This document shows, piece after piece, positions 5,173 to 31,724 of a DNA stretch of 33,189 bases (position 1 is its first letter; each line of letters begins with the position of its first letter). Both the position numbers and the translations under genes were made by a program. Under the pieces are notes generated by a model. That model was given only the letters and a program-made list of their open reading frames with translations, was not told the origin of the DNA and did no database searches. Source of the DNA: a virus. The DNA is taken from the IMG/VR virus record IMGVR_UViG_3300017773_000066, positions 1 to 33,189 of that record; one strand, written 5' to 3'.

Positions 5173-6639
5173 ATGGCAATTACAGGAGCAACTAATACAG
5201 TTGCAGCCCCACAAAAGCAGACGTTATCGACTAACTATATCGATTTTACGTCTGGCACTACTCAAGGTTGGGCACAACAATACTTACCAGACTTGATGGA
5301 AGGTGAGGCCGAAGTATTCGGTTCAAGAACAATTTCAGGATTTTTAGAGCAAGTTGGTGCAGAAGAGCCAATGTCTGCTGATCAAGTTATTTGGTCAGAG
5401 CAAGGTCGTCTACACTTGTCTTACACTGGTAAAGTGACTTCTACAAACGCAGGTACTGCGTCAGGTGGTCAAATTACTATTGAAAACGACATTGATGGAA
5501 CTTCAGACTTTACTGCTACAGCTCACGGTATTCGTCCAGGTGACATTATCTTGTGTGCTCACAACAATCCAGGTGGTGTATTTAGAGCTAGAGTTGAAGA
5601 CGTTGCAAACGCTGTTTTAGACGTAACTCCTTACGGTGTTGCAGACTTAACTGCTCACAACGCTACAGCTGCAGATGCTTTAACTATACTAGTTGTAGGT
5701 TCTGAGTTTAAGAAAGGTGATTCAGGTCGTAGCTCTGCTAACGCTCCAGATTTCAAAACTTTCAACAACAAGCCAATTATCTTAAAAGACTACTACGAGA
5801 TCTCTGGATCTGATGCAGCTCAAATTGGTTGGGTGGAAGTTACTGGTGAAGACGGACAAAACGGATACTACTGGTACTTAAAAGCTGAAGGTGACACTCG
5901 TTCACGTTTCGCTGATTACTTAGAGATGGCTTTGATTGAATCTGAGAAAGGTGCTAACGCGGATAACGTGTCTGAAGGTATCTACGGAACTGGTACAGGT
6001 ACTAATAGTACTGGTACTGAAGGTTTATTCTCTGCTATTGAAGGAAGAGGTAATGTTACTACTGGTGTTACTGGTGTTAACGCTGCTACTGACCTAGCTG
6101 AGTTTGACGCTATCTTAGCTGAGTTTGACAAGCAGGGTGCTATTGAAGAAAACATGATGTTTGTAAATAGAGCTACGTCTCTAGCTATGGACGATATGTT
6201 AGCTGCAATGAACTCTTACGGTGCTGGTGGTACTTCTTTCGGAGTATTCAACAACTCTGAAGATATGGCATTAAACCTAGGATTCTCTGGATTCCGAAGA
6301 GGTTCTTACGATTTCTACAAGTCTGACTTCCGTTACTTAAACGATAAGGCTACTCGTGGATCTATCAACGATGCTTACAAAGCTGAAGCTATCCGAGGGG
6401 TTATTATTCCTGCTGGTGTATCTACAGTGTACGACCAAACATTAGGTAGAAACTTAAAGCGTCCGTTCTTACACGTACGTTATAGAGCTTCTCAGATGGA
6501 AGATCGTAGAATGAAGTCGTTCATCACTGGTTCTGTAGGTGGAAACATCACTGACTCAATTGATGCAATGCAAGTTCACTTCTTATCTGAAAGATGTTTA
6601 GTAGTACAAGGTGCTAACAACTTCATGTTAATGAAGTAA
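5173..6639 (+). CDS. Major capsid protein
   Basis: A 488-residue protein following the scaffold and closed by a strong terminator, as expected for the most abundant virion protein. The N-terminus (LSTNYIDFTSGTTQGWAQQY) and the C-terminal segment with YRASQMEDRRMKSFITGS followed by DSIDAMQVHFLSERC resemble major capsid proteins from uncultured marine tailed phages. An HK97-like fold is expected from the family but not directly visible. Residues about 95-180 form a Gly/Ala/Thr-rich beta segment that could be an inserted surface domain. Codon use differs from neighbouring genes: Asn, Phe and Tyr favour C-ending codons (AAC, TTC, TAC) and Ala favours GCT, a pattern typical of translational selection on highly expressed genes. 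Confidence 0.88.
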   Translation: MAITGATNTVAAPQKQTLSTNYIDFTSGTTQGWAQQYLPDLMEGEAEVFGSRTISGFLEQVGAEEPMSADQVIWSEQGRLHLSYTGKVTSTNAGTASGGQITIENDIDGTSDFTATAHGIRPGDIILCAHNNPGGVFRARVEDVANAVLDVTPYGVADLTAHNATAADALTILVVGSEFKKGDSGRSSANAPDFKTFNNKPIILKDYYEISGSDAAQIGWVEVTGEDGQNGYYWYLKAEGDTRSRFADYLEMALIESEKGANADNVSEGIYGTGTGTNSTGTEGLFSAIEGRGNVTTGVTGVNAATDLAEFDAILAEFDKQGAIEENMMFVNRATSLAMDDMLAAMNSYGAGGTSFGVFNNSEDMALNLGFSGFRRGSYDFYKSDFRYLNDKATRGSINDAYKAEAIRGVIIPAGVSTVYDQTLGRNLKRPFLHVRYRASQMEDRRMKSFITGSVGGNITDSIDAMQVHFLSERCLVVQGANNFMLMK

Positions 6640-7597: not shown

Positions 7598-8344
7598 ATG
7601 GCAGTAAGTGTAGATACGGTATATCAACGTGTACTAGCATTAGCAAATAAAGAACAAAGAGGCTACATAACTCCACAGGAGTTTAACCTTTTAGCCAATC
7701 AAGCTCAACAACAATTGTTTGAGCAATACTTCTATGACTTAAATCAATTCCATAGAAATCCTGGCAACGCTACGGCGTCTGGTGATTCTGTTGATGACAT
7801 TGAAGATAAGTTAAGTATATTTCAAGTATATAATTTTACTTTAACGCAGACTAACGGCAACGAGATATTATTACCTATAAACGACACTATAGGTTATCCA
7901 GCTGGTACTAGCGATATGTATAGGCTTGAAGAAGTAAGACATCTAGAAAATATATGCTCTCAGGTTACGCCTAAGAAACTACACTTAATGAAAAAAGGTG
8001 TTTTTGGTGGGCAACCTTTATTAGAGCACCCAGCTTATATTAGACAAAACAACGCTATACAAGTTTTTCACTTAAACTCTGTAGGCGGTTTTGCAAATAT
8101 ATTTAACGACGTAAGATGCGACTACATAAGAAAACCTAAAAAAGTAGAGTGGGATTATGTTGTCGTAAATGAAAAAGCTTTATACAATGCTAACGGAGCT
8201 GCTGATTTTGAGGTTCACCCTTCAGAAGAAGCTAGACTAGTGTTAAAAATATTAGAGCTAGCTGGTATAGTTATTAACAAACCAGGTCTATCGAGCTATG
8301 GTAAATCAGAGCACGTAGAAGCTGACGCAAAACGTAAATCATAA
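7598..8344 (+). CDS. Neck/connector-type structural protein
   Basis: A 248-residue protein lying before the larger neck gene. The N-terminus (VYQRVLALANKEQRGYITPQ) is followed by a helical EFNLLANQAQQQLFEQYF segment, and I recognise this pattern from structural proteins of uncultured marine phages without an assigned role. The middle is beta-rich (residues 70-170), and residues 170-248 include a short helix EEARLVLKILELAGIVINKP. It overlaps the next gene by one base through a TAATG stop/start junction, suggesting translational coupling and joint assembly. A head-tail adaptor or completion protein is most likely, from position and size; a precise role is inference. Confidence 0.7.
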   Translation: MAVSVDTVYQRVLALANKEQRGYITPQEFNLLANQAQQQLFEQYFYDLNQFHRNPGNATASGDSVDDIEDKLSIFQVYNFTLTQTNGNEILLPINDTIGYPAGTSDMYRLEEVRHLENICSQVTPKKLHLMKKGVFGGQPLLEHPAYIRQNNAIQVFHLNSVGGFANIFNDVRCDYIRKPKKVEWDYVVVNEKALYNANGAADFEVHPSEEARLVLKILELAGIVINKPGLSSYGKSEHVEADAKRKS

Positions 8345-10533
8345 TGAGTGGATTTTGGGACTTAAACAGTGAAGCTGATTACTACAACTACGAAACAAAC
8401 TACGGTAGTTATCAGTATCAAACTTTAAACGATTTAATTAATACGTTTTTAGCTTATTATGTAGGTGAAAATAAAATAATACCTAAAGCCGCTAAAGAAG
8501 ATATTGCGTTTTTTGCAAGACGAGCAGCGCAAGAATTAAGCTATGATACGTTAAGATCAAAGAAAACTTGGGAAGTAGAGGTTAACAACGGTATGTGCAT
8601 ACCTTTACCGCATGACTTTGTAGGCTATACAGATGTTTTTTGGAGCAGCCCTAACGGCATAAAAAGACCTTTGTATCCCACAAGACATACTCAAAACCCG
8701 TTTAACCCTACGCCTACAGACGAGCCGTTTGTTGAAACTATAACTACTGAAACAATAACAGAAGAGCAAATAATAACAAACGAAATACCTTCTAACACTA
8801 AAGTTTATATTTTTTATGACGGTACTTCTATGGGTGTACAGCAGACAGCTGACGCATATTCTTTTGTAACGCAATGGCTAGACGGTTTACCAGGATTTAC
8901 TAGAGACGAAAATAAAACTAGTTCTGGGCATAATGTTTACCATGTTGCTGTAGCTGGTGAAAGATGGTTAGACTGGGCTTCTGTTCCTATGACAGGTCAG
9001 TTTAACAATAGAAATATAAAAGCTCAAATGGACGGAGCGGTTCAAGAAAGCCACTACACTAGTGCTGTAAACGATAATTTCTACAAATATCCTATGGTTA
9101 CAAGTGGTCACGTTGATCACCATAACGGAACAACTATCAACCAAGCAAGCTTATCTTTGTCTGCTGGTTATTGGTCTACTATTAACGCTGGTGATACTAA
9201 CGGAACTGGAGGTGTTAACTACCAATTTTATGATGTAGCTCAAGCGACCGGCAGTGGATTAGGTATTGAAAAAGGTGATACGGCAGATTTAATATATAAT
9301 CTTGATAGTAGCGCGCAAACAATTACGCTGCAAGGAGCTCCTCCTCAAGCTTCGTCAGGTGATGATGTTTTAGTTATCGTATTTGCGGACGAGGCTCACG
9401 CTGCATATCATGGCTTAGCGTCAACAGAAAGCTTCACCAGTCCTACTGGAAGTAACGCTAATGTTTTAGCTCCATTGTTTACTAACGTTGGCGCTAATGT
9501 TATACAACCTACGAGCGTATACAAAAACGACTACGATGAGTATGTGAAAAACTACGATACACATACAGGAAGCTACAACGTGTTTGTTTATCCAAAAGAG
9601 AAAACAACCACTAGTGGAGCATTTGAGTTTGGCACAATAAGAAGACAGTATATACCTCATCTTCTAGCTTCAATAAGTAGCGGTAACCAAGTAGTTCCAG
9701 ATGGTACTTGGCAAAATGGTACAGCACCTATTTTTGATGCTTTAGCAGCAGGTCAACAAGATGGTAATCCAGCTCTTGCTGGTTTAGAATCAACCCCACC
9801 TGTCGGAGGTTATGATCAAGCTAATCCAAACCCAAACCCTTATTGGCAAGGTATGAATCCTCAATTTGGAGGATTAGATCAGCATGGTGTAGGAACAAAT
9901 ATTAGCGGTGGGCAGTTTACTTCTACAGGGTTTGAAGACGATTTAAACGACTTTATATCTGGTGGCGTTCAAGAAGAAATAGTAACTAATACCTACGAAA
10001 TAACTAACGTAGAAACTAGTGGTCAAAACTGGTATAATATAAATCCTGATGGTAGTGTAGCTGGTGACTACAACGGAACTACATTAAACAATTATCAAAA
10101 CAGCGATGCTGGTGAACCGATAATAGCAGACGCTGATTACGATCATGGATATGAAAACATAACACTAGGCCAAAGATATGGGTTGTCACCTGAGACAGCT
10201 CAAGTTAACGGATCATACTACTTCGATTATGAAAATGGTAAGTTGTTTTTCTCTCCAGCTTTAGTTGGTCAGACGGTAGTTTTAGATTATATATCTGATG
10301 GCTTAGACTCTAGCGGAAATATGATTATACATAAGTTTGCTGAAGAAGCTTTTTATAAACACGTAGCTTACGCTATCGCTTCAACAGGATCAAACTATAG
10401 TCCAGCAACTGTACAGATGTTAAAGAAAGAAAGATTTGCTGCTACTAGAAACGCTAAGATCAGACTTTCTAATATGAAGACTGTTGAGATGGAACAAATA
10501 ATGAGAAACAAATCTAAAATAATAAAGCACTAG
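8344..10533 (+). CDS. Neck/head-tail connector protein with a large insertion, possibly vWA-like
   Basis: A 729-residue protein. Residues 1 to about 125 and about 600-729 look like the two halves of a connector family known from marine phages: the C-terminal part contains GQRYGLSPETAQVNGSYYFD, then HKFAEEAFYKHVAYAI, and ends NKSKIIKH. The region between them (about 450 residues) looks inserted. It begins with a Rossmann-like strand VYIFYDGTSMG (Asp159), followed by a strand VYHVAVAGERWLDW (about 198-211) and a third VLVIVFADEAHAAYH (342-353). This order is reminiscent of von Willebrand factor A domains, but DGTSM is one residue short of the classic DxSxS metal site. The insert ends in a Gly/Pro/Asn/Gln-rich stretch that may be a flexible linker. 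Neck role is firm; vWA identity is tentative. Confidence 0.75.
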   Translation: MSGFWDLNSEADYYNYETNYGSYQYQTLNDLINTFLAYYVGENKIIPKAAKEDIAFFARRAAQELSYDTLRSKKTWEVEVNNGMCIPLPHDFVGYTDVFWSSPNGIKRPLYPTRHTQNPFNPTPTDEPFVETITTETITEEQIITNEIPSNTKVYIFYDGTSMGVQQTADAYSFVTQWLDGLPGFTRDENKTSSGHNVYHVAVAGERWLDWASVPMTGQFNNRNIKAQMDGAVQESHYTSAVNDNFYKYPMVTSGHVDHHNGTTINQASLSLSAGYWSTINAGDTNGTGGVNYQFYDVAQATGSGLGIEKGDTADLIYNLDSSAQTITLQGAPPQASSGDDVLVIVFADEAHAAYHGLASTESFTSPTGSNANVLAPLFTNVGANVIQPTSVYKNDYDEYVKNYDTHTGSYNVFVYPKEKTTTSGAFEFGTIRRQYIPHLLASISSGNQVVPDGTWQNGTAPIFDALAAGQQDGNPALAGLESTPPVGGYDQANPNPNPYWQGMNPQFGGLDQHGVGTNISGGQFTSTGFEDDLNDFISGGVQEEIVTNTYEITNVETSGQNWYNINPDGSVAGDYNGTTLNNYQNSDAGEPIIADADYDHGYENITLGQRYGLSPETAQVNGSYYFDYENGKLFFSPALVGQTVVLDYISDGLDSSGNMIIHKFAEEAFYKHVAYAIASTGSNYSPATVQMLKKERFAATRNAKIRLSNMKTVEMEQIMRNKSKIIKH

Positions 10534-10534
10534 T

Positions 10535-13500
10535 ATGCCAGAGTTTATTAGAAATTTTGCGCAAGGTAAAATGAACAAGGACCTTGACGAGCGCCTTGTT
10601 CCAGCTGGTCAGTATAGAGATGCGCTTAACATTGAAATATCTACTTCTGAAGGAAGTAATGTTGGTGCGCTAGAAACTTTACTAGGCAATATAGAACAAA
10701 CACCAAACGGTGTTCCAGCTGATAGTTATTGCGTTGGGTCGATAGTTAATGGAGAAGAGAACGCTATATATTATTTAGTAGCAGGTTCTAGAAACGATAT
10801 ATCTATCAATGACGAAGGTTGTGTAAAAGATTTTATATTAAAATATGCTGTAGACACAAACACTTTAACTTATGTGTTTGTAGATATATACGAAGCTAAT
10901 ATGGTTGTTGCTAGTGTTAGTGCAGGTAATAATCAAACTCCACATGAAATAAAATTTGCAAACAACAATTGCCTTAGACCAGGTATGTCTGCAACAAATA
11001 CAACTAATAACAATGCAGACTTAGGCGACATTATTGACCTACTAGACTCTAACGGCGTTTTAACTAACAACGCTATTAGAATAAGTAATTCTACGCCACT
11101 TCCATCTGTTGGTGATACTATAAAGTTTAGAGGAAGAAGAATATTAGATTTTAGTAGCTTTAGACTTATCACAGGTATAAACATCGTTGACGACTTTATA
11201 ATGTTCACCGACGATTACAGCGAGCCTAAAAAAGTAAATATAAAAAGATCTTATCAAGGTACGGGTAGCAATGCTTTTACTTTGTCAAACTTAAACAACA
11301 ATGCTGAATATCACACTAGGTTAGTATCGAGAAGAGCTGATGGATCATTTGCTGGTGGTGGATTTGAAGTTGTTGAATCTAGATCATCTGCAGTACAACC
11401 AAAATATGCGGAGTTAGAGGATATTACAGTAATTAAAAAATCTCCGTTAACACCTCCAACAATTAGAATGTTTGCTACAGATGATGAGGATAGAGGTAAT
11501 ATATCTGGAACACTACCAACGTTTGGAGGTTTTATAAACAATGGAGTAGAACTACAAGTCGGCGACATAATATCTATAAGCACTTTTTCTCCTGTTGATT
11601 TTAGAATTGGTGACTTCATTATATTGACAAATGACGATGAAGCTGATCAACAAACTTTTACAGACTTTCAAGTTAGACTAAGAGTTACAGGAAGACCAGG
11701 CGGCGCTAATGGCTCTGGAAACACTTCTGGTCCATATACGCTTGAGGTACAAGCTGTAGATCCAGATTTACCTGATGGAACTGGAGCTAATGCTCCTAGC
11801 TTTTTAGTTAGGCTTGAGCAAAACCCAGCTTTATTTGAGTTTAAATTTCCAAGATTTGGATATAGATATAAATATGCAGACGGTGAATACTCTCCGTTTT
11901 CTCCGTTTTCAGAAATAGCTTTTCTTCCTGGTGGGTTTGATTATGAGCCAAAAAGAGGTTGGAACTTAGGTATGGCTAATCAGCTAAGAAGATTGTTCGT
12001 AGAGAACTACATGCCTCAAGACTATAACAGAGCTAAGGATATAGTTGAAGTAGACATACTCTATAAAGAAGAAAACTCTACAACCATATACACAGCTAAA
12101 ACTATAAAGCCTAGTGATGCTGATATTAACAGCTTAAATCTTTGGCCTAGTAGAAATGATTATGCTAACAATAGTAACAGAGGTTCTATACAGATAAAGT
12201 CAGAGTTAATACACGCTGTTGTTCCTTCTAATCAACTTATAAGACCTTGGGATAATGTTCCAAGAAAAGCTAGAGCTCAAGAAGTTACTGGTAATAGGCT
12301 TCTTTATGCTAACTATTTGCAAAACTATAATCTGTATGACACTGGCAACAATTTAATAAGCCCTGATATTGGATTAAGTTTTAATTCTACTTCTTACGAT
12401 AATTTAACAGATGGCAATGGAAATCCTTTAGCTTTAGGTAGACCTAGAAAATCTGTAAAGTCTATGCGTACATATCAGCTAGGTGTAGTTTACAAAGACG
12501 AGTTTGGTAGAGAAACACCTGTATTAGCTGACAAAGAAAGAGGTTCTGTTACTATAGAAAAAGAGTTTTGTAACGACGTAAACGTCTTGACAACTCAGAT
12601 AAGAAACAATGCTCCTAGATGGGCAAAGTCTTTTAAGTTTTTTATAAAAGAAACTTCAGCAGAATACTACAACTTAGCAATGCACAAGTGGTATAACGCT
12701 GAAGACGGTAATATATGGTTATCGTTTAACTCTTCTGATAGAAATAAAGTTGACATTGAAACTTTTTTAGAGTTAAAGAAAGCTCATGATAGTGACACAG
12801 CTGTAGAAGAAAGAGCTAGATATAAAATAGTAGCTATAGAAAACGAAGCTCCTGAAGATTTAAGAATAGACAGGCAGCAACAAGGTGTTGTTATAAACAA
12901 CTTTGCTAGATCTTGGATCGGTAATGTTAACGAAGGTTTTCCATTTGAAGACTATAACTTCATAACCGTAGATCAAGCAGAGTTTGATAGCAGCGTGCCT
13001 AGCAGTGTTATACCTGAAGCAGCCGATCACGCTATACGTATAGTAGGGCAAGGCTCTGATAGAAGTGAATTTTACGATATACTAGGAATAACGGCTACAA
13101 CTAACGGACAATACAGAATACAGATAACAAAAAAGTTTGGACCAGACGTAAACTTCTGCTCAACAGATAACACTTGGGGTGGAAGAGTATCTGGTCTTAG
13201 CGTTATATTCGTTAAAAACAAAAGAATAGACAAACCAGAGTTTGACGGTAAGTTTTTTGTAAAAGTATATAAAGACTTAACGTTGCAAAACTTTGTATTA
13301 GTAACCTCAGATGATGACTTTGTTGTAGACCAAGCGTTTAGCTTAAGATACTTGCATACTACTGGGGCAAACGGAACGCTAACCCACCCTTATGGGTACC
13401 AAGAAGGTGGAGGCACATACCAATGGAACGATAGCGGAGACACCACTAGTCGCATGGGCGTTGTAGGCGTAACTACTAGAGACAGTGGTGGTAATAGGTT

Positions 13501-16060
13501 TTGGCACTTTGGACCAGGTGGAAATGGAGAAGAAAGCGATAGGGTTAGAGCGTATATAGACGAAGCTCCGCCTGCTAGATTATACATACCCGACGCTGAT
13601 GACGAGTCTGTTATTCCTGATGGTTGGGACACTGCTGGAAACGGTATAGCTGACGTGTCTTTTTTTGGATCAAGAAACAGCGGTATATTTGCGCCAAGAC
13701 CTGGTTATGATCCAGACGCAGATGAATTTATAAATATTGGTGGTTTTAATATTCCTAATCCAGCAGCACTAAATCCTTGGATTTCAGTTTCTTCTAACTA
13801 CACTAGCACGCCTAATGAAGACTGGATAGTTGAAGGCAGCACTAACAGAAACTCTTATTCTTGGAGAAATGGACCAGCGGGTATATACAGTGTTAACGGT
13901 GTTGGTATGATGGACGTAAGTATTGCTACTATTAGACCAGGAACGTATAGAGATCCTGCGGGTTTTGCTTGGGATAGAGAGCACGTACGGTCTCTTAGAT
14001 GGCTAGGTTTTGCTGATACAGATAATCCTAATGTAGGTAATTTTGCTGACAACTCAACAGTTGGACAAGTTAAAGCTTTTGTAGATAGACTTCTTCAAAT
14101 AGGAACTAAGTTTAAATTTAGACAAGATCCAGATAGAGAGGTTTATACAGTAGAGGCGTGGAGAGGTCATTACGGTATATTAAACTCTAGAAGAGCTCAA
14201 GGAGCTACTGAGTTTAGACACTTTACTCCCGGAAACAAAAGACATAAGTTTACCGTAGCTTTAGACAAAATAATTGGTGATCCAGCTAATGGAGACGGAG
14301 CAGCATACGATCCTAGAACTGACTTAAGACATGATTTAACTTTCGCAGACAGCTGTCAGTTAGAGTTCTTAGCTCCGTATGTTTCTGAAGACGGTTTTTA
14401 TTCTGAAAATCCAGCTGTATTTGAAACGTATCCAAAAGAAAATATTGAGTTAGATATATACTATGAAGTAAGTAGAGCTTATCCTATAGAGCTAGCTAAA
14501 GACAACGACGAAACCTTAGCCTTAATTGGTGGCAGCGTTACATTGGGAAACAATGTAATTGGTAATATAAGCGATTTTTCTTTTAACGGAGATGCTGCTA
14601 TTGATTTTGCCGCTGGCATACTTCAAGGCGTAAACGTTGGAAATATATTAACTATAGAAGATGGCTGGGGAGGCCTTGTTCAGCTTAGAGTTGCCGCGGC
14701 TCAACCAGCGGGTGCTACTAGAGTTGTAGTAGACTCTAGCGTACACAATCCTTTATTAACGTTTACTTTACCTTGGCACAACTGCTATGCGTTTGGTCAC
14801 GGTGTAGAGTCTGATCGAATTAGAGACGACTTTAACCAACAGCAAATACAAAACGGAGTTAAAGCATCGACAACAATAGCTGAGCAATACAAGGAAGAAA
14901 GAAGAGGTAACGGGCTAATATACTCTGGAATATACAACTCTATATCAGGTGTAAATAGATTAAATCAATTTATTCAAGGTGAAAAAATAACTAAAGATAT
15001 AAACCCAGACAACGGAACTATACAAAAGTTATTTACTAGAAATACAGACATAATAGCGTTCTGTGAAGACAAGGTAATTAAAATACTTTCTGATAAAGAC
15101 GCTTTATTTAATGCTGACGGTAATGCTAACGTAACAGCTACAGCTCGAGTGCTAGGCGCTGTAACACCGTTTATCGGTGACTATGGTATATCTAAAAACC
15201 CTGAGTCTTTTGCTGCAGATCAGTTTAGATGCTACTTTGCAGATCAACAGCGAGGAGCTGTTTTAAGGCTGTCTAGAGACGGTATAACTCCTATATCGGA
15301 TGTAGGTATGAAAGATTACTTTAGTGATATTATGGCTGATCCTTTGATTGCTGGAGCGTCTAGAATGTTAGGTACTTTTGACAAAAGAAAAGATGAGTAT
15401 AATTTAACTATAAGTAAACCACCTGGTTTCAAAAAAGTTATTGGACCATCTTTCGAGCCTGTTACTGTTACGTTTAACGAGGGTGTCAAAGGCTGGACTA
15501 GTTTTAAATCGTTTATACCTGAAAACGGTGTAAGTATAAATAACAACTACTATACTTTTAAAGAAGGTTCTCTTTGGAAGCACCACGATAATCCAGTTAG
15601 AAACATGTTCTATGGAAATATACCTGGATTTAATGAATGGTCTTATGTCGAGCTATTGTTTAACGACATGCCTAGCTCTGTAAAGAACTTTCAGACTGTA
15701 AAGTATGAAGGCACTCAGTCTAAGATAAATCAATTTAGCACTGTAAGCTACAATGGTCAAGAGTATACAGATAAAGAATACTACAACCTTACAAACAAAA
15801 CAGGCTGGTACGTTGATTATGCTTATACTGATCTAGCAGAAGGTAAAGTTCCAGAGTTTTTAAACAAAGAAGGTAAGTGGTTTAATAGAGTGTTTGGTCA
15901 ATGTACTGATCTAGAAAATCTAGATGAAAACGAGTTTCAAGTTCAAGGTATAGGCTTAGGATCTATGACGCATAGTGATCCTGATAGCTTACCACCTAAC
16001 CCACTCTTAATAACAATTAAAGAATCGAGTACTGATATAGACGGTACTAACTGGGATTAA
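10535..16060 (+). CDS. Giant tail-associated virion protein (tail stabilisation/tubular type)
   Basis: An 1841-residue beta-rich protein. The N-terminus MNKDLDERLVPAGQYRDALN followed by STSEGSNVGALE is a hallmark I recognise from large structural proteins of marine phages, comparable in opening to P22 gp10-like tail stabilisation proteins. Residues about 210-240 include GINIVDDFIMFTDDYSEPKK. The C-terminal third contains a propeller-like pattern of short hydrophobic strands with LFTRNTDIIAFCEDKVIKI and YFADQQRGAVLRLSRDG. The final segment has KYEGTQSKINQF and GWYVDYAYTDLAEGKVPEF, also recurrent in this family. No catalytic motif was seen. The gene is much longer than stabilisation proteins of model podophages and probably carries extra tail-surface domains in its middle. 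Confidence 0.8.
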   Translation: MPEFIRNFAQGKMNKDLDERLVPAGQYRDALNIEISTSEGSNVGALETLLGNIEQTPNGVPADSYCVGSIVNGEENAIYYLVAGSRNDISINDEGCVKDFILKYAVDTNTLTYVFVDIYEANMVVASVSAGNNQTPHEIKFANNNCLRPGMSATNTTNNNADLGDIIDLLDSNGVLTNNAIRISNSTPLPSVGDTIKFRGRRILDFSSFRLITGINIVDDFIMFTDDYSEPKKVNIKRSYQGTGSNAFTLSNLNNNAEYHTRLVSRRADGSFAGGGFEVVESRSSAVQPKYAELEDITVIKKSPLTPPTIRMFATDDEDRGNISGTLPTFGGFINNGVELQVGDIISISTFSPVDFRIGDFIILTNDDEADQQTFTDFQVRLRVTGRPGGANGSGNTSGPYTLEVQAVDPDLPDGTGANAPSFLVRLEQNPALFEFKFPRFGYRYKYADGEYSPFSPFSEIAFLPGGFDYEPKRGWNLGMANQLRRLFVENYMPQDYNRAKDIVEVDILYKEENSTTIYTAKTIKPSDADINSLNLWPSRNDYANNSNRGSIQIKSELIHAVVPSNQLIRPWDNVPRKARAQEVTGNRLLYANYLQNYNLYDTGNNLISPDIGLSFNSTSYDNLTDGNGNPLALGRPRKSVKSMRTYQLGVVYKDEFGRETPVLADKERGSVTIEKEFCNDVNVLTTQIRNNAPRWAKSFKFFIKETSAEYYNLAMHKWYNAEDGNIWLSFNSSDRNKVDIETFLELKKAHDSDTAVEERARYKIVAIENEAPEDLRIDRQQQGVVINNFARSWIGNVNEGFPFEDYNFITVDQAEFDSSVPSSVIPEAADHAIRIVGQGSDRSEFYDILGITATTNGQYRIQITKKFGPDVNFCSTDNTWGGRVSGLSVIFVKNKRIDKPEFDGKFFVKVYKDLTLQNFVLVTSDDDFVVDQAFSLRYLHTTGANGTLTHPYGYQEGGGTYQWNDSGDTTSRMGVVGVTTRDSGGNRFWHFGPGGNGEESDRVRAYIDEAPPARLYIPDADDESVIPDGWDTAGNGIADVSFFGSRNSGIFAPRPGYDPDADEFINIGGFNIPNPAALNPWISVSSNYTSTPNEDWIVEGSTNRNSYSWRNGPAGIYSVNGVGMMDVSIATIRPGTYRDPAGFAWDREHVRSLRWLGFADTDNPNVGNFADNSTVGQVKAFVDRLLQIGTKFKFRQDPDREVYTVEAWRGHYGILNSRRAQGATEFRHFTPGNKRHKFTVALDKIIGDPANGDGAAYDPRTDLRHDLTFADSCQLEFLAPYVSEDGFYSENPAVFETYPKENIELDIYYEVSRAYPIELAKDNDETLALIGGSVTLGNNVIGNISDFSFNGDAAIDFAAGILQGVNVGNILTIEDGWGGLVQLRVAAAQPAGATRVVVDSSVHNPLLTFTLPWHNCYAFGHGVESDRIRDDFNQQQIQNGVKASTTIAEQYKEERRGNGLIYSGIYNSISGVNRLNQFIQGEKITKDINPDNGTIQKLFTRNTDIIAFCEDKVIKILSDKDALFNADGNANVTATARVLGAVTPFIGDYGISKNPESFAADQFRCYFADQQRGAVLRLSRDGITPISDVGMKDYFSDIMADPLIAGASRMLGTFDKRKDEYNLTISKPPGFKKVIGPSFEPVTVTFNEGVKGWTSFKSFIPENGVSINNNYYTFKEGSLWKHHDNPVRNMFYGNIPGFNEWSYVELLFNDMPSSVKNFQTVKYEGTQSKINQFSTVSYNGQEYTDKEYYNLTNKTGWYVDYAYTDLAEGKVPEFLNKEGKWFNRVFGQCTDLENLDENEFQVQGIGLGSMTHSDPDSLPPNPLLITIKESSTDIDGTNWD

Positions 16061-20976: not shown

Positions 20977-23900
20977 ATGACTGAAGAAAAAGTTAGAGAG
21001 GTTGTTCAATTAATGATTGATAACAACGAGTCACCAGAAGATATAAAAAGATTTGTTAAAAAAGCTAAAAATTTTTTAGACAGTCAAACAAAGGAAGACC
21101 AAACACAGTCGGATGCCACTGTGACGGAAGAAAGTACGGCATCCACTTTGGAAGATGGTTCTTCGGATTCGCTGCAACTAGATGATGAAGCTCAGCAAAT
21201 TGTAAACAGCTATCACCCTAACTATAAAAATTTAGAAGCCGATATAAAAAGTGGAAAAATAACAAACCAGCAAGTTATTGATTTCTACAGTACTACCAGC
21301 AAAGATGCTGAAGAGCCAAGCGTTACTCTGAAGCCTACTAGAAATCAAGAGCTGCAAGGCTTTTATGACAAGTACAGAAGAGAAGGAGAAACTAATGAAG
21401 AACTCATGCAGCGCATAAGCCCTGTTGAAATGAGAGCTGACGTTACCCAAGGTGAGCCTCTAAGTCTTGAAGAACAAATGCTAGCAGCTGGAGCTCAAAC
21501 ACAAACGTCTTACATGGGTAGTGATGTTAAAGCTCCTGGAAGCATGCCAACAACTACTATAGACGGTGTAGTATATAATCCTAACGATCTTTTTGGAAAC
21601 GCTTATACGTTGGCAGATGGATCTACAGCTAGTCAAGACGATATAAAAAGATTTGAAGAGCTTAAAATGTTATACGAATACCAGCAGTTTGAAATAGCCG
21701 ACCCAAACAGAACAAGGTCTCGATTGGCTGGTGAGTACGATGAAATGTCTGACATAGAGATACAGCAAAAGTTTATTGAAGATCCAAAAAAAGCAGAAGA
21801 GCAAGATCAACAAGTCGCGGTAGTTGAAAACCAATTTAACTTTAAAGACTACCAAAACTATAAAAGTGAAAAAACAACTAATGATTTTTCTAAATATGTA
21901 GCGGAAAACACAGCTGACATAACGGCTAGAATGCAAGCTGAATTTAACGAAAGAGCTATAGGTATAACAGATAAAGCGGAGTTAGAAAAACTAAAAGAGG
22001 TTGTACAAGAAAAATACTCTTCTGAGTATACAGATTTTGCAGATAAAAAGTGGGATGCTTGGGTTGAATCATACAAGCCTAAATACTCTTTGTGGGACGG
22101 AAAGCTTAAAGATATATCGCTAAAGCTAGACGAAAAAGGCTTTGCAGATTTATCTGGCCCTGAAAAAAAGCAGGCTTTGCAAGAAGTCTTAGATGAGCAA
22201 ATGAGGCTTATAGGAGATGTTCCTCAAGCTGAAGACATGAAGAACGAATACTGGGCTCACTTTTATGATAAGCTCTCAACAGACCCCGAGAAAGGCTACA
22301 CTCAATTTGCTATTAAAGATATAGCTACTCAAGTTGGAAACGACGCTGAAAAAGAACTAAAAAAACTAGCTAAAAACTACAAGACTATATACTCTTCTGT
22401 TGGAGGTGGTACTATGGCTGGAAGTAGCACTACTACAACGCCTATGCAACAAGCTGTAAGAGATAATCCTAGTCTTGCTACAGCTATGAAGTATAGAGAT
22501 AGAATATTAGACAACCCAGAGGCAATGTCTGAAAGTGGTTTTGTAAACTACTTTAGAGGTTTAACTTCTATGGAAGGTTACAAATACATACCTTTTGCAG
22601 GTGGAGCTATTGATATGGCTGAGAAATATGAAATATTAAAGCTTTCTAAAAAAGAAAACAGAACTCAATCAGAAGAAGACGCATTAGCTTTATATCAACT
22701 AAACAATTTATCAAACCAAAAAGTATCAGAGCTGTCTACAGGTTACAACGCTGGTAAGCAAACTGCCGAGTCATTACCTTTTATGGCTGAAATAATTGCT
22801 ACTGGAGGTATTTATTCTACCGTTAAAGAAGGTACTCAAAAAGGTATTAAAAAAGCCTTGGTCAAAAGAATAGATGACACTTTAGCTAAAAACATGAGAT
22901 TTAAAAAAGGAACTTCTCAAATGTTGTTTGTTCCTAAAAACACTAAGTTTCAAGTTATAGACAAAGCGTCTGATGCTATAGGTGTTATAGCTGCAGCTAC
23001 AGCTCAATCTACAGCTCAACCTCAAAGATACTTAGCTGGAACATTTGAAAACATGACGCCTCAAATGGCTTTTGCTTATACTGATCAGTCTGATGGATTA
23101 GTAAATACTATAACAGAGCAAGGCGATGGATTTACAAAAGCTTTTTCAAAAGCATACGCTACAAACTCTTTAGAGTATATAACAGAACGTATGGGTACGC
23201 TAGCTCCTAGCGCTATAAAAAAGCTTATACCTAAAGGAACATCAGATGAGTTTGTTAAAAGATTGTCTCTAGGCGTTTACATGCGCAAATTTGGGTTAAA
23301 CAAAGCTGAAGCTGTAGCTCACTTTACAAAAAATCAAGCTGGTTGGAACGGTGTATTAGGTGAAATATCTGAAGAGATGTACAATATACCACTATCTAAC
23401 TTAGTAAACGGGCAAGGTTTAAACTTTGGAGATTTTGGTATGCAAGAGTTTAAAGAGATGGCCATAAGTATAGGCTCAACTTCTTTAGCTTTTGGAGGTG
23501 GTAGTGTTGCATATAATAATTCTATAGGTAGACAAAACCCTGCTTACTACGTGGATAATCAAAGGTTTGAAGATAAAAAAGCAGCATTAAAAAAACTAAA
23601 GCAATTAAAGTCTGATGGCAAGTTAGATGCTAATACAGATATAGAGGTAAGAAATGACTTCGTGGCTTTTGATGAGTTTTCAAATTACTTAGAGCAAAAC
23701 GGCTTGAGTAATGATATTATAAAAACTGGAGGTAAAGGCGTACCTCAAGAAGCTATAACAGCTACAGAAGTAGAAATGCTTAATGAAATAGAAAGCCCAG
23801 AGCTTAGAAGTCAGCTTGAAGAAATAAGTGGAGAGCTTGGTAGTTTAGAACAAAAGAAACAGGATATACTAAACAGACCTACTAAAGGTAAACAAGACGT

Positions 23901-26900
23901 TGCAAAACAAGCTGCACAAATAGAAGAGATAGACGCTGAAATATCTAGACTTACTGAAGCTAAAAACACAGTATTAAGTCCAGTAAAAGAGTCTATAATA
24001 GAATATAAAAAAGAAGAAAGATATAAGCAACAACTAGCTAACGCTAAAGAAGCTCAAAAAAGTTTAAATAAAACTTCACCTATAAAAACTAGGTTTGTAG
24101 AGGCGCCTGACGCAGAATCTGCGGCTGAGTTAATGAGACAAGATGTTTTAAACGCTAACGGATTACAGCAAGTAGAAGGAACTCCAGGTAGTAGCGATGA
24201 TGGTAATCTATACATCGACATAAACACTGGTAACGAAGTTGTGTTAGATCAAGGGTCTTTAAACAAAATTGGACAAGTTATCAACGAATCTAAAACAGCA
24301 CATGGTTTTGCCGGTAATTTTCTTGATCCTACTACTGGAGAAAGACTGCTTGTAATAAACAAGCAAGCAGCCGTAGAGGGTATGGGTATGAACGTAGCTT
24401 CTCACGAGTTCTTTCATGAGTTTTTAAGAAATACATTAAGAAATAATCCTGAAGTTTCTGTGGCCTTAGGAAGAGCTCTTCAAGGTTATTTAGCTAACAT
24501 AGATCCAAGACAAGTTAGAGATAGTGATTTTAGAAATAGATTAGCAGCATATCAAAATGCTCCAGAGTCTATACAAACCGAAGAGACGATGGCTATATTT
24601 GCTGACGCCTTAGCTAACGGCACTATGCAGTACAACGAAAATGCTATGACTAAGCTTGGAGATATTATTAGAAGAATAATGCAGGGCCTTGGTATGCGCG
24701 TTAAGTTTAAGTCTGGTAGAGATGTTTTTAATTTTGTAAAAGATTACAATAAAGCTATTGAGTCAGGAAAAGGTTTAAATAGAGGTTTAAGAAAAACTGC
24801 TATTGAAGGAGCTATAATAAGCGGAAACATAAAAGCTGAAGCTCAGCTTCTTAAAAACATGGTTGCTGGTTTTAATAAACAGATAAAAGCAGACATGCCT
24901 GATGTAGAAGATCTAACACTTGATGATTTAGAAGCTATGGGCGTTAGGTTTTCAAAGGAAGGCTTGCCAGCTGAAAAGATGAGCAAGGAAGAGCTAGCTA
25001 AGTCTGTTAATGATACTATGGCTCCTCTAATAAACCTTAAAAAGAAAAGAAACAACGGCACTATAACAGAGCAAGAAGAGCGTATGCTTGATCGTATGCA
25101 AGCTGACATACCTGGTAGAGCCGCTTTCTTTTACACGGGTATGGCTCAAGATGCTTTTAGCAGATCTTTAAATTTAGCTCCAACAGAAGATATTAGAAAC
25201 GATCTATTAAACAATAAAGAAGACATAATGTCTCAGCTATTGTTTGATCCTGGAACAGCTACAGCTAAAGCTAGAACTGTGTTAGGCTTGCTTCAAGACT
25301 TTGACCCAGCAAAACATAAATATGAAAATGCAGCCGCTTATGTTAATCAGTTTTTTAAAAGAAGATCACAAGAAATATTTGCTAGAAGAGGAGTTGAAGA
25401 TGTAGCTACTAAGTCACAAGATCAAGACGAAGCTATAAAAAAGAAAGTTGAAGGTATGACAGGGCCTAGCTCTGATCAAGTAGAAGCTAAAACTAAAGGT
25501 AGAGTTTTAGGCGCTGATCTTGGTTTACACAAATACGATCAAGACGGAAACAGAGTAGATGATTTAAGAAAAGAAGCTGACAAGCAGTTAGATATGTTAT
25601 TAGAGCAAGACTCTCCTACGTTTGCTGAGTCCCCTTCTTTTACAGCTCCTTTTATATCTGAAGTATCAGGAGTGCCAGCTAAAAAAATAACAGATAAAAC
25701 AGCAAACTTAAATCAACACCTAGGGCCAGCTAGAAGATTTAACGCTAAGTATAAGGACATGCTTATAGCAATGAGACCTAGGCATTACACCGTGAAAATG
25801 GTTCAATCTAAATCTGGTGAGTTTGAAGCTAGACCTGACAAAGCTATTGGTATACCTAACAAAATTAAAAGTTTAGGTTATAACAAAGGCACTAGAAAAT
25901 CTAACTTAACACCTTGGTATATCAAGCCTATAAGCTCGTCAGAGTTTGAAAATTTTATAGCCCCAAGAAATACAGATGGAACTGTAAATGAGAGTGATAG
26001 AAATATAGAGCAAAACAATAAAGGTTGGTTAAGCTTGCTTGATAAAGTTATGAGTAATCAAGAGATACGTATGGCTGCTATAGACAGAGGTTTACCTATG
26101 CAGTGGATTGGTAGAATGCGAGACGGTAACTCTAACTATTTATTTTCAAAAGAAATAAGAGAAATGGGCACAGATAACGAGGCTGTGTTCTACGCTAGAC
26201 TACCTGAGCTTGGTTCTCAACCAATGACGTCTGATCCTAAGTCTATACAAAATGCTTTAATGCTAGTTTATCCAGACATAATGACTAGAGGCACAGCTGG
26301 TAAAATAGCTAAGTCAATATCTAAGTTTATAAAACAATACAAAACAATAGAGCAAGGCTTCGCTGGGCTTGATAAAGTACCGCCAAGAACTTTTGAAGAG
26401 TTTTTAGCAGACAACATAAATTTACCCGAGTTTAATATAACTAAACTTCTTGACGTAAAGCAAGATGGTAAGTTGATGAAAAACTCAGACTTATACGACA
26501 ATATAGAGTTTGTTAAAAACCAAAGAGCTTCTGTAGTTAACATGGGTAATTACATGATACAAGACCTTGGCATGAAACCTTCTGAAGTAATCAGATATAT
26601 GTTAGCTTACTTAAAGCCGATGTATGCTGGTGCTAGTAAAATAGGTAGAGGTAGTATTGGTGTAAAAGAAGATGGAACTCTTTTTTACAAAGAAGGTTTT
26701 GAAAGCGGTACACCTAGAGGCATGGTATTTGAAAGCGTTGGTGATTTTATTAAAAACGCAGTAAACAAAATAGAAGGCGTAAACATCGATATGTCTAAGG
26801 TTACTGACGCCGGCGGAAGTATACAAGGTAAAAAAATGCTAGAAGTATATAGCGCTGATGTATCAGCTTTACCTCAAAGTGCTAAGGGTATGATGAACAA

Positions 26901-29900
26901 GCTGAAAAAGCTTGGTGAAAAAGAATTTTTTAAAGCTGTAGATAAAGAAACAAAAGAGGTTCGCCAGCTTATAGATGTAATGATGAGGTATTTTGTTGAC
27001 CAAGTTAAAGATGGTAATTTAGGTAGAAACGATTTAGCAATGATGATGTTGTCTATGAACGCTGGTTTAGACACGCCTATGAGAAGAGCCGCTAACTTAG
27101 CATATATAGGATCTGATGTTGAAAACATGGATCCTAGCGATATGACTAAAGAAACAGTAGCTTACGAGCACATGATTCCAGCAAATTACATGGCTGTTAA
27201 AATACTAGATCAGTATATGAACAAAGGTGGTATACCAAATCTAGATGAGTTTTATAAAAACTACAACGTAGCTATTATATCAGCAAAGATGGACGATGTT
27301 TTAAAGAAGCAAGGTCTACTTTCTATGATGCCTGTAAATTACGATTTAGATATGCCTTCTTGGACTAGGTATTACAATTTTAGAACTCAAGGGTTTAGTG
27401 ATGTTGTAGGCTTAAAAGCTTTAGACCCTAAAGCCGCAGATGTTTCTAGCACAGAGGCTTTTGAAAAAGCAAACAAGTTGTTAATTGACAGCCCAGTAGA
27501 TTTACAAAATAAAAAGAATTACGATAAAGCTATAAATAATGCTAGACTATTTTCTAAAGAAACACCTTCAAAAGGTATGTCTACGTTTGACTTTGACGAA
27601 ACCTTAATAGACAAAGGTGAAAACTTTATTATAGCTAAAAAAGACGGTCAAGAGGTTAAGATTAGTTCTGGTCAATGGCCAATACAAGGACCTCAATACG
27701 CGGCTGACGGTTGGAAGTTTGACTTTACAGACTTTGTAAATGTTAGAGGCGGTGTTGATGGACCGTTACTACAGAAAATGAAAAACCAAATAGCTAAGTA
27801 TGGATCTAAAAACGTATACGTTTTAACAGCTAGACCGGCTGAAGCTGCTACAGCTATACATGGCTGGTTAAAAACTAAAGGAATTAATATACCTTTAAAA
27901 AATATTACCGGCTTAGGAAACAGCACTGGAGATGCTAAGGCTCAATGGTTCATAGATAAGTACGCCGAAGGCTATAATGATATGTACTTTGTAGATGATG
28001 CTTTACCTAATGTTGAAGCTGTTAAACATGTGTTTGATCAGCTTGATATTAAGGGTAAGTCTGTCATTGTAAGACCTAGGTTTAGTCTTGATCCATCTGT
28101 AGAGCTTGACAATATGTTAGAGCGTAGCAAGGGTGTTGATAGAAACGCTGTGTTTAATAGAGTTCAAGCAAGAAACAAAGGAAAAGTAAACAAAGTAAGA
28201 CAGCTATTTATACCGCCAAGCGCTGATGATTTTGAAGGCCTGATGTATTATAATATGGGTAAAGGAAAACAAGGCGAGGCCGATGCTAAGTTTTTCAAAA
28301 ATATGTTTTATGATCCTTACAATAGAGCAGACAGAGAGCTTGATATGTACAAACAAACATTAAGAGAAGATGTTCAAGCTATAAAAAAACGTTTTCCTGA
28401 AGTAGCTAAAAAATTAAAAAAAGACTTTAGCAATACTGGATATACAAATGAGCAGGCTATGCGTATATACCTGTATCATCAAGTTGGATACGACGTGCCT
28501 GGTATGTCTGAAGCTGACGTCAACAATGTAGCACAAGCCGTAGCATTAGACCCTGAAATGACTATGTTTGCCAACTTAATTAGAAACGCTATGAAACTCG
28601 ACGAGTATGTGCAGCCAACTGTAGGTTGGAACGCTAGCTCTTTTAATGGAGATATGTCAGACGCGGCTAAGATCAAAAGAGATGGATACATGCAAGAGTG
28701 GAACGAAAACATTGAAGCTACGTTTACTCCTGAAATGTTAAACAAGCTAGAAGCCATACATGGGTCAGGATATAGAAGTGCCCTTGAAGACTCTATAGCT
28801 CGTATGAAGTCTGGTAGCAATAGACCTACTATAAAAGATAAAAGAGTTAACGGCTTTTTAGACTGGTTAAACGGCTCTGTTGGTGCTATCATGTTCTTTA
28901 ATGCTAGATCAGCTGTGCTACAAACTTTGTCTACGGTTAACTTTATTAACTTTGAAGACAATAATATATTCGCGGCTGCTAAAGCTTTTGCAAATCAAAA
29001 ACAGTATTGGGCAGACTTTGTTATGCTGTTCAACTCACCAATGCTTAGACAAAGAAGAGGAGGTTTACAATCAGACTTAAACGCTTCAGAGCTAGCACAA
29101 CTAGCAGAACAAGGAGGTGTTAAAGCTGTTATTGGTAGATTACTAGAGTTTGGTTTTACCCCTACACAAATAGCGGACAGCTTCGCTATATCTGCCGGTG
29201 GTTCTACATACTACAGAAACAGAGTAAATAAATATGTAAGCGAAGGTATGAGCCAGTCAGAAGCTGAAGCTCAAGCTTTTATAGACTTTCAAGAAATAGC
29301 AGAGGCTACTCAGCAGTCTAGTAGACCAGACAAAATATCTCAAGAGCAAGCATCAGTGTTAGGTCGTTTAATACTAGCGTTTCAAAACACTCCAATGCAG
29401 TACAACAGACTTATAAAGAAAGCTGCGTTAGACTTAATGAACGGTAGAGGTGATACTAAAGCTAACATATCTAGAATACTATACTATGGAGCTGTGCAAA
29501 ATATTATATTCTCATCTCTTCAAACAGCTTTATTTGCCGTGCTGTTCGATGACGATGATCAAGAAGAAGAGTTTTTAGACACAAAAATAGAACGTATAAC
29601 AAATGGAACTCTTGACTCACTACTTAGAGGTTCTGGTATATATGGCGCTGTATTATCTACAGTTAAAAACACTATCATGAAATACATGAGTGAGAGAGAA
29701 AAAGGTATGCGCGCTGACAACGGTAGAGTTTTAATTGAAGCTCTTAACGTGTCTCCACCTCTTGGATCAAAAGCTAGAAAACTATATTCAGCTATGACCA
29801 CAGACAAGTGGAATCAAGATATTTATGATAAAATACCTTTGTACAATATTGATAATCCAATATGGGATGCTGCAGGTAATACTGTCGAAGCTGTAACAAA

Positions 29901-30378
29901 TGTTCCGGCTGGACGTATACAAAGAAAAATATCTAACTTAAAAGCAGCTTCAGATAATGAAAATGCAACATGGCAGAGATTAGCTTTATTTTTAGGTTGG
30001 GACAAGTGGGGCTTAGGTATTGAAAGACCTGAAGAAATAGAAGAGGCTAAAGAAGAAGTTAAAGAAGAGAAGAAAGAGCAGAAAAAGAAAGAGCGTAAAG
30101 AAAAAGAAGCTGAAGTAAAAGAAGAAAAAGAAAAAGATTACTTAAAAGATCAGCAAAAAGAAAAAGAAGAAAATAAAAAGCCTAGATGCGCGGCAGCTAC
30201 AAGGAGCGGTAGTAGATGCAAAGGCACGCCTGTTGACGGAACGTATTGTACTATACATACAAAAGTAGAAAAAAGAAGTGATGGTAAAGAAGTACAGTGC
30301 AAGAAAGTAAAGTCTAACGGTGACCGCTGTAAAATGAAGACATCAAGTAAATCAGGATTATGTTATTATCACGACTAA
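20977..30378 (+). CDS. Giant polyvalent protein: metallopeptidase-like, HAD-like, LPD38-like, tandem zinc modules
   Basis: A 3133-residue protein, probably packaged and ejected. Residues 1-100 are acidic and Ser/Thr-rich. Hydrophobic stretches at about 589-630, 665-685 and 826-850 could contact membrane. A coiled coil spans about 929-1010. A metallopeptidase-like site HEFFH lies at 1143-1147, with EETMAIFAD at 1202-1210 as candidate third ligand. A HAD-like domain at about 2200-2365 has DFDET (Asp2205, Asp2207), LTARP (2283-2287), Lys2321 (DAKAQWF) and VDDALPN (Asp2340/2341), the full catalytic set. Residues about 2638-3010 (ARSAVLQTLSTVNF; SVLGRLILAFQNTPMQYNRL) resemble domain LPD38. A Lys/Glu linker leads to two CCCH modules: C3071, C3081, C3091, H3094 and C3108, C3118, C3129, H3132. 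Polyvalent proteins of this kind deliver effectors to the host at infection. Confidence 0.85.
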   Translation: MTEEKVREVVQLMIDNNESPEDIKRFVKKAKNFLDSQTKEDQTQSDATVTEESTASTLEDGSSDSLQLDDEAQQIVNSYHPNYKNLEADIKSGKITNQQVIDFYSTTSKDAEEPSVTLKPTRNQELQGFYDKYRREGETNEELMQRISPVEMRADVTQGEPLSLEEQMLAAGAQTQTSYMGSDVKAPGSMPTTTIDGVVYNPNDLFGNAYTLADGSTASQDDIKRFEELKMLYEYQQFEIADPNRTRSRLAGEYDEMSDIEIQQKFIEDPKKAEEQDQQVAVVENQFNFKDYQNYKSEKTTNDFSKYVAENTADITARMQAEFNERAIGITDKAELEKLKEVVQEKYSSEYTDFADKKWDAWVESYKPKYSLWDGKLKDISLKLDEKGFADLSGPEKKQALQEVLDEQMRLIGDVPQAEDMKNEYWAHFYDKLSTDPEKGYTQFAIKDIATQVGNDAEKELKKLAKNYKTIYSSVGGGTMAGSSTTTTPMQQAVRDNPSLATAMKYRDRILDNPEAMSESGFVNYFRGLTSMEGYKYIPFAGGAIDMAEKYEILKLSKKENRTQSEEDALALYQLNNLSNQKVSELSTGYNAGKQTAESLPFMAEIIATGGIYSTVKEGTQKGIKKALVKRIDDTLAKNMRFKKGTSQMLFVPKNTKFQVIDKASDAIGVIAAATAQSTAQPQRYLAGTFENMTPQMAFAYTDQSDGLVNTITEQGDGFTKAFSKAYATNSLEYITERMGTLAPSAIKKLIPKGTSDEFVKRLSLGVYMRKFGLNKAEAVAHFTKNQAGWNGVLGEISEEMYNIPLSNLVNGQGLNFGDFGMQEFKEMAISIGSTSLAFGGGSVAYNNSIGRQNPAYYVDNQRFEDKKAALKKLKQLKSDGKLDANTDIEVRNDFVAFDEFSNYLEQNGLSNDIIKTGGKGVPQEAITATEVEMLNEIESPELRSQLEEISGELGSLEQKKQDILNRPTKGKQDVAKQAAQIEEIDAEISRLTEAKNTVLSPVKESIIEYKKEERYKQQLANAKEAQKSLNKTSPIKTRFVEAPDAESAAELMRQDVLNANGLQQVEGTPGSSDDGNLYIDINTGNEVVLDQGSLNKIGQVINESKTAHGFAGNFLDPTTGERLLVINKQAAVEGMGMNVASHEFFHEFLRNTLRNNPEVSVALGRALQGYLANIDPRQVRDSDFRNRLAAYQNAPESIQTEETMAIFADALANGTMQYNENAMTKLGDIIRRIMQGLGMRVKFKSGRDVFNFVKDYNKAIESGKGLNRGLRKTAIEGAIISGNIKAEAQLLKNMVAGFNKQIKADMPDVEDLTLDDLEAMGVRFSKEGLPAEKMSKEELAKSVNDTMAPLINLKKKRNNGTITEQEERMLDRMQADIPGRAAFFYTGMAQDAFSRSLNLAPTEDIRNDLLNNKEDIMSQLLFDPGTATAKARTVLGLLQDFDPAKHKYENAAAYVNQFFKRRSQEIFARRGVEDVATKSQDQDEAIKKKVEGMTGPSSDQVEAKTKGRVLGADLGLHKYDQDGNRVDDLRKEADKQLDMLLEQDSPTFAESPSFTAPFISEVSGVPAKKITDKTANLNQHLGPARRFNAKYKDMLIAMRPRHYTVKMVQSKSGEFEARPDKAIGIPNKIKSLGYNKGTRKSNLTPWYIKPISSSEFENFIAPRNTDGTVNESDRNIEQNNKGWLSLLDKVMSNQEIRMAAIDRGLPMQWIGRMRDGNSNYLFSKEIREMGTDNEAVFYARLPELGSQPMTSDPKSIQNALMLVYPDIMTRGTAGKIAKSISKFIKQYKTIEQGFAGLDKVPPRTFEEFLADNINLPEFNITKLLDVKQDGKLMKNSDLYDNIEFVKNQRASVVNMGNYMIQDLGMKPSEVIRYMLAYLKPMYAGASKIGRGSIGVKEDGTLFYKEGFESGTPRGMVFESVGDFIKNAVNKIEGVNIDMSKVTDAGGSIQGKKMLEVYSADVSALPQSAKGMMNKLKKLGEKEFFKAVDKETKEVRQLIDVMMRYFVDQVKDGNLGRNDLAMMMLSMNAGLDTPMRRAANLAYIGSDVENMDPSDMTKETVAYEHMIPANYMAVKILDQYMNKGGIPNLDEFYKNYNVAIISAKMDDVLKKQGLLSMMPVNYDLDMPSWTRYYNFRTQGFSDVVGLKALDPKAADVSSTEAFEKANKLLIDSPVDLQNKKNYDKAINNARLFSKETPSKGMSTFDFDETLIDKGENFIIAKKDGQEVKISSGQWPIQGPQYAADGWKFDFTDFVNVRGGVDGPLLQKMKNQIAKYGSKNVYVLTARPAEAATAIHGWLKTKGINIPLKNITGLGNSTGDAKAQWFIDKYAEGYNDMYFVDDALPNVEAVKHVFDQLDIKGKSVIVRPRFSLDPSVELDNMLERSKGVDRNAVFNRVQARNKGKVNKVRQLFIPPSADDFEGLMYYNMGKGKQGEADAKFFKNMFYDPYNRADRELDMYKQTLREDVQAIKKRFPEVAKKLKKDFSNTGYTNEQAMRIYLYHQVGYDVPGMSEADVNNVAQAVALDPEMTMFANLIRNAMKLDEYVQPTVGWNASSFNGDMSDAAKIKRDGYMQEWNENIEATFTPEMLNKLEAIHGSGYRSALEDSIARMKSGSNRPTIKDKRVNGFLDWLNGSVGAIMFFNARSAVLQTLSTVNFINFEDNNIFAAAKAFANQKQYWADFVMLFNSPMLRQRRGGLQSDLNASELAQLAEQGGVKAVIGRLLEFGFTPTQIADSFAISAGGSTYYRNRVNKYVSEGMSQSEAEAQAFIDFQEIAEATQQSSRPDKISQEQASVLGRLILAFQNTPMQYNRLIKKAALDLMNGRGDTKANISRILYYGAVQNIIFSSLQTALFAVLFDDDDQEEEFLDTKIERITNGTLDSLLRGSGIYGAVLSTVKNTIMKYMSEREKGMRADNGRVLIEALNVSPPLGSKARKLYSAMTTDKWNQDIYDKIPLYNIDNPIWDAAGNTVEAVTNVPAGRIQRKISNLKAASDNENATWQRLALFLGWDKWGLGIERPEEIEEAKEEVKEEKKEQKKKERKEKEAEVKEEKEKDYLKDQQKEKEENKKPRCAAATRSGSRCKGTPVDGTYCTIHTKVEKRSDGKEVQCKKVKSNGDRCKMKTSSKSGLCYYHD

Positions 30379-31400: not shown

Positions 31401-31724
31401 ATGAGTTTCACTTTACCAGGCATAAGCTATAAAGAACCAGACAGTCCTTTAGATAAAAAGAAAAGGAAAAAGAAACCCGATGTTCGCAAAACTACCAAAG
31501 GAAAAGGTAGAAATTTTAGAACAGTTAAAGAAGGTGCTGGTATGACAGCTAAAGGAGTTGCGGCATACAGACGTAAAAACCCTGGTAGTAAACTAAAAAC
31601 AGCTGTGACAGGCAAGGTAAAGCCTGGCAGCAAAGCAGCTAAGCGAAGAAAAGCTTTCTGCGCTAGATCAAAAAGTTGGACTAGCGAAAGAGGTAAAGCT
31701 GCTAGACGAAGATGGAAATGTTAA
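31401..31724 (+). CDS. Very basic small protein resembling DUF6321
   Basis: A 107-residue Lys/Arg-rich protein. The C-terminal half (GAGMTAKGVAAYRRKNPGSK, then KAAKRRKAFCARSKSW and RGKAARRRWKC) matches a small domain I recall as DUF6321, which recurs in marine phages and large viruses; this name is from memory. The N-terminal 40 residues are a Lys-rich disordered tail. The charge suggests binding to DNA or RNA, or packaging with the genome. It begins three bases after the OMP stop and starts a run of small basic genes. Confidence 0.65.
   Translation: MSFTLPGISYKEPDSPLDKKKRKKKPDVRKTTKGKGRNFRTVKEGAGMTAKGVAAYRRKNPGSKLKTAVTGKVKPGSKAAKRRKAFCARSKSWTSERGKAARRRWKC

Follow-up and report, generated by a model that had tools for sequence, protein, structure and literature searches.

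A candidate binding module in an insertion hot spot of a tail-barrel ring protein from a podovirus resembling crassviruses

The large insertion in a tail-barrel ring protein of this virus, a podovirus resembling crassviruses, occupies an insertion hot spot of the ring protein family and, judged by profile matches and co-linear alignment, is homologous to a domain of the muzzle proteins of other phages. On balance, we lean towards the interpretation that the insert serves the tail barrel as an exchangeable binding module, one that probably faces outward and is probably vWA-like. Ring proteins are commonly regarded as conserved plumbing that leads from the portal to the tail tip. Should the loops of these proteins act as cassette sites into which binding domains can be swapped, proteins labelled as 'structural' may hold determinants of host range in these phages, and pairs of nearly identical phages whose main difference is the insert would then allow a direct comparison.

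The ring gene lies at positions 8344..10533 (+ strand) of the window, the whole 33,189-nucleotide stretch of DNA analysed here, and is an open frame with an ATG start that encodes 729 amino acids. Residues 1-116 (8344..8691, +), with predicted helices and the first beta strands, and residues 605-729 (10156..10530, +), with the remaining beta domain and long helices, match the ring/adaptor family phrog_13977 (E=1.8e-26). The N- and C-terminal family profiles, to which the window contributes one of four sequences, match the protein at 1.8e-56 and 4.9e-57, respectively. The gene stands directly before the muzzle gene. From phrog_13977 homology and gene position, the product is assigned as a ring/adaptor-family protein of the tail barrel, and an earlier note on this DNA had rightly described it as a connector-like protein whose two ends resemble a short family. 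A match of residues 27-176 to SU10_adaptor (PF24175; E=1.2e-4, 23 bits) fell below the cut-off of 27. No match to CrAss_Ring_1 (PF24228) was found at E<=0.1, hhalign detected no match between the ring family and crAss001 gp43, and the window protein has no detectable sequence match to crAss001 gp34, gp35, gp40 or gp43. No structure of the ring family was recovered by sequence search. We infer that phrog_13977-type proteins form rings like those of crAss001.

Immediately upstream of the ring gene, 7598..8344 (+) encodes a second ring-like protein, whose family is related to crAss001 ring 4/5 protein gp34 (hhalign E=8.3e-5 over 171 columns, probability 61%). Immediately downstream, 10535..16060 (+) encodes a muzzle-type tail-tip protein of 1841 amino acids (phrog_14478, E=1.2e-132), in which crAss_MUZ_C scored 20.3 bits against a cut-off of 27 (E=7.9e-4). 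This muzzle protein is without the vWA-like domain, and a domain profile search found no second copy in the window. The other neighbours of the ring gene are a terminase, a portal, a structural protein and one gene that carries no assignment; the putative major capsid protein is encoded at 5173-6639 (phrog_13704, a family labelled only as virion structural protein). Beyond the muzzle gene come five shorter genes and then a single 3133-aa frame at 20977-30378, which has weak Pfam matches only and is probably a giant virion protein comparable to elemovirus gp18. In the corresponding place of the large virion proteins of relatives, Maribacter phage Panino has a 1829-aa frame (PANI_CDS0069, 21569-27058) annotated as a tRNA methyltransferase, a label that is likely to be a partial-domain name. 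The window also encodes a DUF6321 protein (31401-31724, E=2.8e-10) and a protein of 113 amino acids that matches thioredoxin below the threshold (32830-33171, E=0.0065).

Flavobacteriia are the hosts of the nearest annotated phages, in most cases from seawater or the Baltic Sea; the insert was absent from each of the phages examined. The host of the virus is probably a marine member of the Bacteroidota, a marine origin being suggested because the relatives are marine. It should be noted that the Callevirus and Elemovirus records are filed outside Crassvirales, and that elemoF is among those so filed despite a crAss_MUZ_C score of 65.9 bits.

To judge the rarity of the insertion, we used a putative major capsid protein alignment to retrieve 80 loci and scanned stop-to-stop frames with profiles of the N- and C-terminal ring halves, each built from four sequences (window, Panino, ctfjg026 and elemoF); 53 ring-core sequences went into a tree. 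The inserted segment covers approximately residues 117-604 (8692..10155, +) and adds about 430 amino acids net in comparison with relatives. The two conserved halves are separated by 42-73 residues (median 59.5) in 46 of the 53 homologues, against 488 in the window protein, 471 in L009 and 476 in L091; in seven of the 53 the gap exceeds 150. The ring proteins of Maribacter phage Panino (290 aa), ctfjg026 (307 aa), elemoF (286 aa) and phi40:1 (283 aa) are uninserted. The long internal insertion proposed in the earlier note is thus confirmed by alignment with relatives that lack it, and full-length architecture of the window type is absent from most homologues. The ring core of phi40:1 sits on a very long branch (2.17) of the tree, and its placement is unsure.

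Within the tree sample, the vWA-like insert is confined to the window, L009 and L091, which form a long-branched clade (support 100/100); L092 has it too, on a contig that stops within the gene. Identity between the window and L009 is 76% in the N-terminal core and 77.6% in the C-terminal core. An assembly accident is an unlikely source of the insertion, because a 100% identical copy of the window protein occurs on a separate contig (IMGVR 3300017739_000159), three further contigs (L009, L091 and L092) have a 55-58% identical insert in the same place, and the substitutions are of the purifying type (omega 0.18-0.29). Relatives of the insert on the fetched contigs are few, namely four contigs and the muzzle lineages. 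Pattern scans for FADE...YHG and FYDGTSMG recovered the domain in the already known contigs only, all other hits being unrelated proteins.

Insertions recur at the middle site of the ring protein, which makes it a hot spot. In five relatives, the inserts at this site show no detectable similarity to the window insert (L020 10534-11187, L024 10667-11290, L030 10515-11348, L031 10599-11495 and L043 5936-6622), and Pfam searches with these five found no family. The inserts of L024 and L020 are alike at E=4e-17 and those of L031 and L030 weakly so; short matches among some of the middle inserts sit at their edges and include ring sequence. We rejected the idea that all middle inserts go back to one insertion, since they are unlike in content and the middle-insert label needs at least four changes on the tree, although weakly supported branches allow fewer and the starred branches alone force one. 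A second insertion site near residue 15 holds an insert of 80-115 aa in 22 of the 53 homologues (L034, L056, L076, L077, L082, L086 and 16 others). It lies between a YY motif and a GxYQ motif, and by eye the insert resembles a small beta domain; N-terminal and middle inserts never occur together in one protein of the 53-row sample. The L043 middle insert has a sub-threshold match to the CshA adhesin repeat (E=0.049) and, by eye, a likeness to a carbohydrate-binding jelly roll.

Within the window insert, residues 150-545 (8791..9978, +) make up a putative vWA-like domain of Rossmann type, which is homologous to the muzzle-protein domain of phi4:1/phi17:2 and FpV4/Fpv3. With the window insert alone, searches of Pfam, PHROGs and NCBIfam found no family. 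The L009 insert matches phi4:1 gp042 by tblastn (E=5e-3) and its family phrog_37948 in PHROGs (E=3e-6), and the FpV4 domain matches phrog_37948 at E=1.4e-5. A domain profile built without phi4:1 recovered phi4:1 at E=1.5e-4 among 3201 frames, and the aligned domains run co-linearly between the Asp motif and the final F..Dl.. block. A joint alignment of muzzle domains with full ring proteins misplaced the domains and was discarded in favour of domain-only alignments. FpV4 gp29 is a muzzle protein (crAss_MUZ 1.1e-36, crAss_MUZ_C 9.5e-10), with the domain between crAss_MUZ, which ends at residue 1316, and crAss_MUZ_C, which starts at 1775. No Pfam muzzle family matched phi4:1 gp042, and its reading as a probable muzzle protein rests on co-linearity with gp29, assessed by eye, at and after the domain. 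Among 47 searched records, the domain was carried only by the window clade, phi4:1 and FpV4, and the genome contigs yielded no relative of the ring-type or the FpV4-type domain.

The evidence that the domain is vWA-like is suggestive, and we consider this fold reasonably probable on account of the DxSxS motif of the muzzle homologues and the beta/alpha order. DGTSM, at residues 159-163 (8818..8832, +), follows strand 1 and aligns with FDTTSM in phi4:1, FDRSGSF in FpV4 and FDSSGSF in L122; the muzzle homologues FpV4 and L122 thus have a canonical DxSxS, of which the window motif lacks the last Ser. FADE, at residues 347-350 (9382..9393, +), follows the fourth core strand, and its E350 is invariant in the domain family and is followed by an invariant YH (355-356). 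AlphaFold prediction of the domain from an 8-row alignment was of low confidence (pLDDT 43, pTM 0.54), with core strands at 4-11, 50-55, 193-200 and 263-269 in domain numbering; the predicted order of strand, helix, strand, and later strand, helix, strand, helix, fits vWA. A single-sequence prediction of the full protein was useless (pLDDT 31). Foldseek comparison of the domain model with the PDB and BFVD gave nothing significant (best E=0.82). A few chains of Sec23, a protein that contains a vWA domain, were among the matches at E>1 and were not counted as evidence. The three Rossmann-like strands of the earlier note, including DGTSM, are consistent with the predicted core at low confidence.

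No domain member matched PF00092 or PF13519 at E<=10, nor did these families match in whole-record searches, and PDB sequence searches with several alignments found nothing. Against ten true vWA domains, hhalign placed the FpV4-type domain in register at DxSGS (P about 0.006-0.02); FpV4 scored 25.0, above all 250 random frames (23.2), whereas the window domain alone scored at background, below 32 of the 250. The earlier suggestion of a vWA-like domain thus draws its support from the muzzle homologues and the strand order, and none from the Pfam profiles, Foldseek or the hhalign score of the window domain. A literature search, with most subscription papers outside its scope, found no vWA domains in crAss-like phages. 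The domain could instead have another Rossmann-type fold, for example that of a hydrolase or one private to these phages, and act on or bind envelope polysaccharide; the missing profile match, the absent last Ser of DGTSM and the invariant D159, E350, Y355-H356 and D396, which differ from the classic MIDAS set, would all suit such a fold. We rate this as possible but rather doubtful, given that FpV4 and L122 have an exact DxSGS after a hydrophobic strand and before a helix, as in vWA, and that hhalign sets their domains in register with vWA. On the vWA-like reading, the MIDAS motif of the window domain is degenerate; adhesion and metal binding, both raised in the earlier note, are putative functions of the insert.

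The insert diverges faster than its surroundings in L009 and L091, a pattern that comes from one pair of phages. Identity in 150-base windows is 84-100%, mostly >93%, over the approximately 6 kb upstream and drops to 70-87% through the greater part of the insert; it recovers to 95-99% over the last part of the insert and the C-terminal core, with 83-95% at the start of the muzzle gene. In the insert, dS reaches 0.56 and omega 0.29; the corresponding values in the flanking ring core are 0.15-0.23 and 0.07-0.15. Because dS is raised in the insert, segment exchange is indicated rather than faster protein change alone. Fast divergence fits surface exposure, and would also be expected under weak constraint. 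The insert might be a passive decoration or stabilizing domain of little specific function, tolerated in an exposed loop, as unrelated inserts and empty sites among relatives and an insert omega 2-4 times that of the core (L009 vs L091) would allow. This seems improbable to us, since omega of 0.18-0.29 indicates purifying selection across 460 codons, there are long invariant blocks such as AGERWLDWASVPMTG, and the sharp edges of the raised dS speak for exchange and not drift.

The exchangeable binding module that we favour would have arisen when a loop of the ring protein beta domain took up a module of about 430 aa, with a core that is probably vWA-like and has a degenerate form of the MIDAS motif. 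In the cryo-EM structure of crAss001, the muzzle is at the tail tip, with proposed host contact, and the ring proteins form dodecameric rings, of which R1 and R2 bear docking hubs for tail fibres (PMC10172136). The module may point outward, about 12 copies of it would be displayed if the ring is a dodecamer, and it may bind a host-surface component or a part of the tail fibre; recombination may replace the module as host surfaces change. The R1/R2 hubs also raise an alternative, in which the insert has a structural docking role, holding fibres or replacing the tail-hub collar around the barrel, and itself makes no host contact: the window gene, like R1 in crAss001, directly precedes the muzzle gene, and a fast-evolving insert could follow an exchanged fibre. 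However, docking needs no insert, because the ring protein of most relatives is free of any; the homologous domain of other phages is in the muzzle, where no fibre hub is described; and neither crAss_Ring_1 nor gp43 is detectably matched by the window protein. We regard a docking part as unlikely. Returning to the binding module, we tentatively raise the further possibility that a vWA-type module is traded between the barrel ring and the muzzle of Bacteroidota podoviruses, with the ring loop as a cassette site for several unrelated domains and the barrel as a multivalent host-binding collar that evolves by exchange of domains.

Known systems offer partial parallels. Rings R1-R5 of crAss001 (CrAss_Ring_1, CrAss_Ring_2 and CrAss_Ring_3_4) share the order of ring and then muzzle genes, the helical and beta-domain make-up, as judged from sequence, and, if the insert is discounted, a comparable size, but at 225-238 aa they are without such an insert, as is the SU10 adaptor (PF24175, a model of 194 positions with a match below the cut-off). 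The vWA/integrin I-domain superfamily has the same hydrophobic strand, Asp motif and helix, and the same alternation of strands and helices, as the window domain, which differs in its degenerate motif, long insertions between strands, other invariant residues and lack of a profile match. The phrog_13977 relatives (Elemovirus, Panino, Callevirus and IMG/VR) are homologous across the whole ring core at both ends; the uninserted ones have approximately 283-333 aa, and others have different inserts there. In phi4:1 gp042 and FpV4 gp29, the domain is in the muzzle and not the ring and is shorter (~250-265 aa), with a canonical DxSxS in FpV4, but its DxTSM/DxSGS, ES/EA..YH, DY..Y, YP and F..Dl blocks are ordered as in the window.
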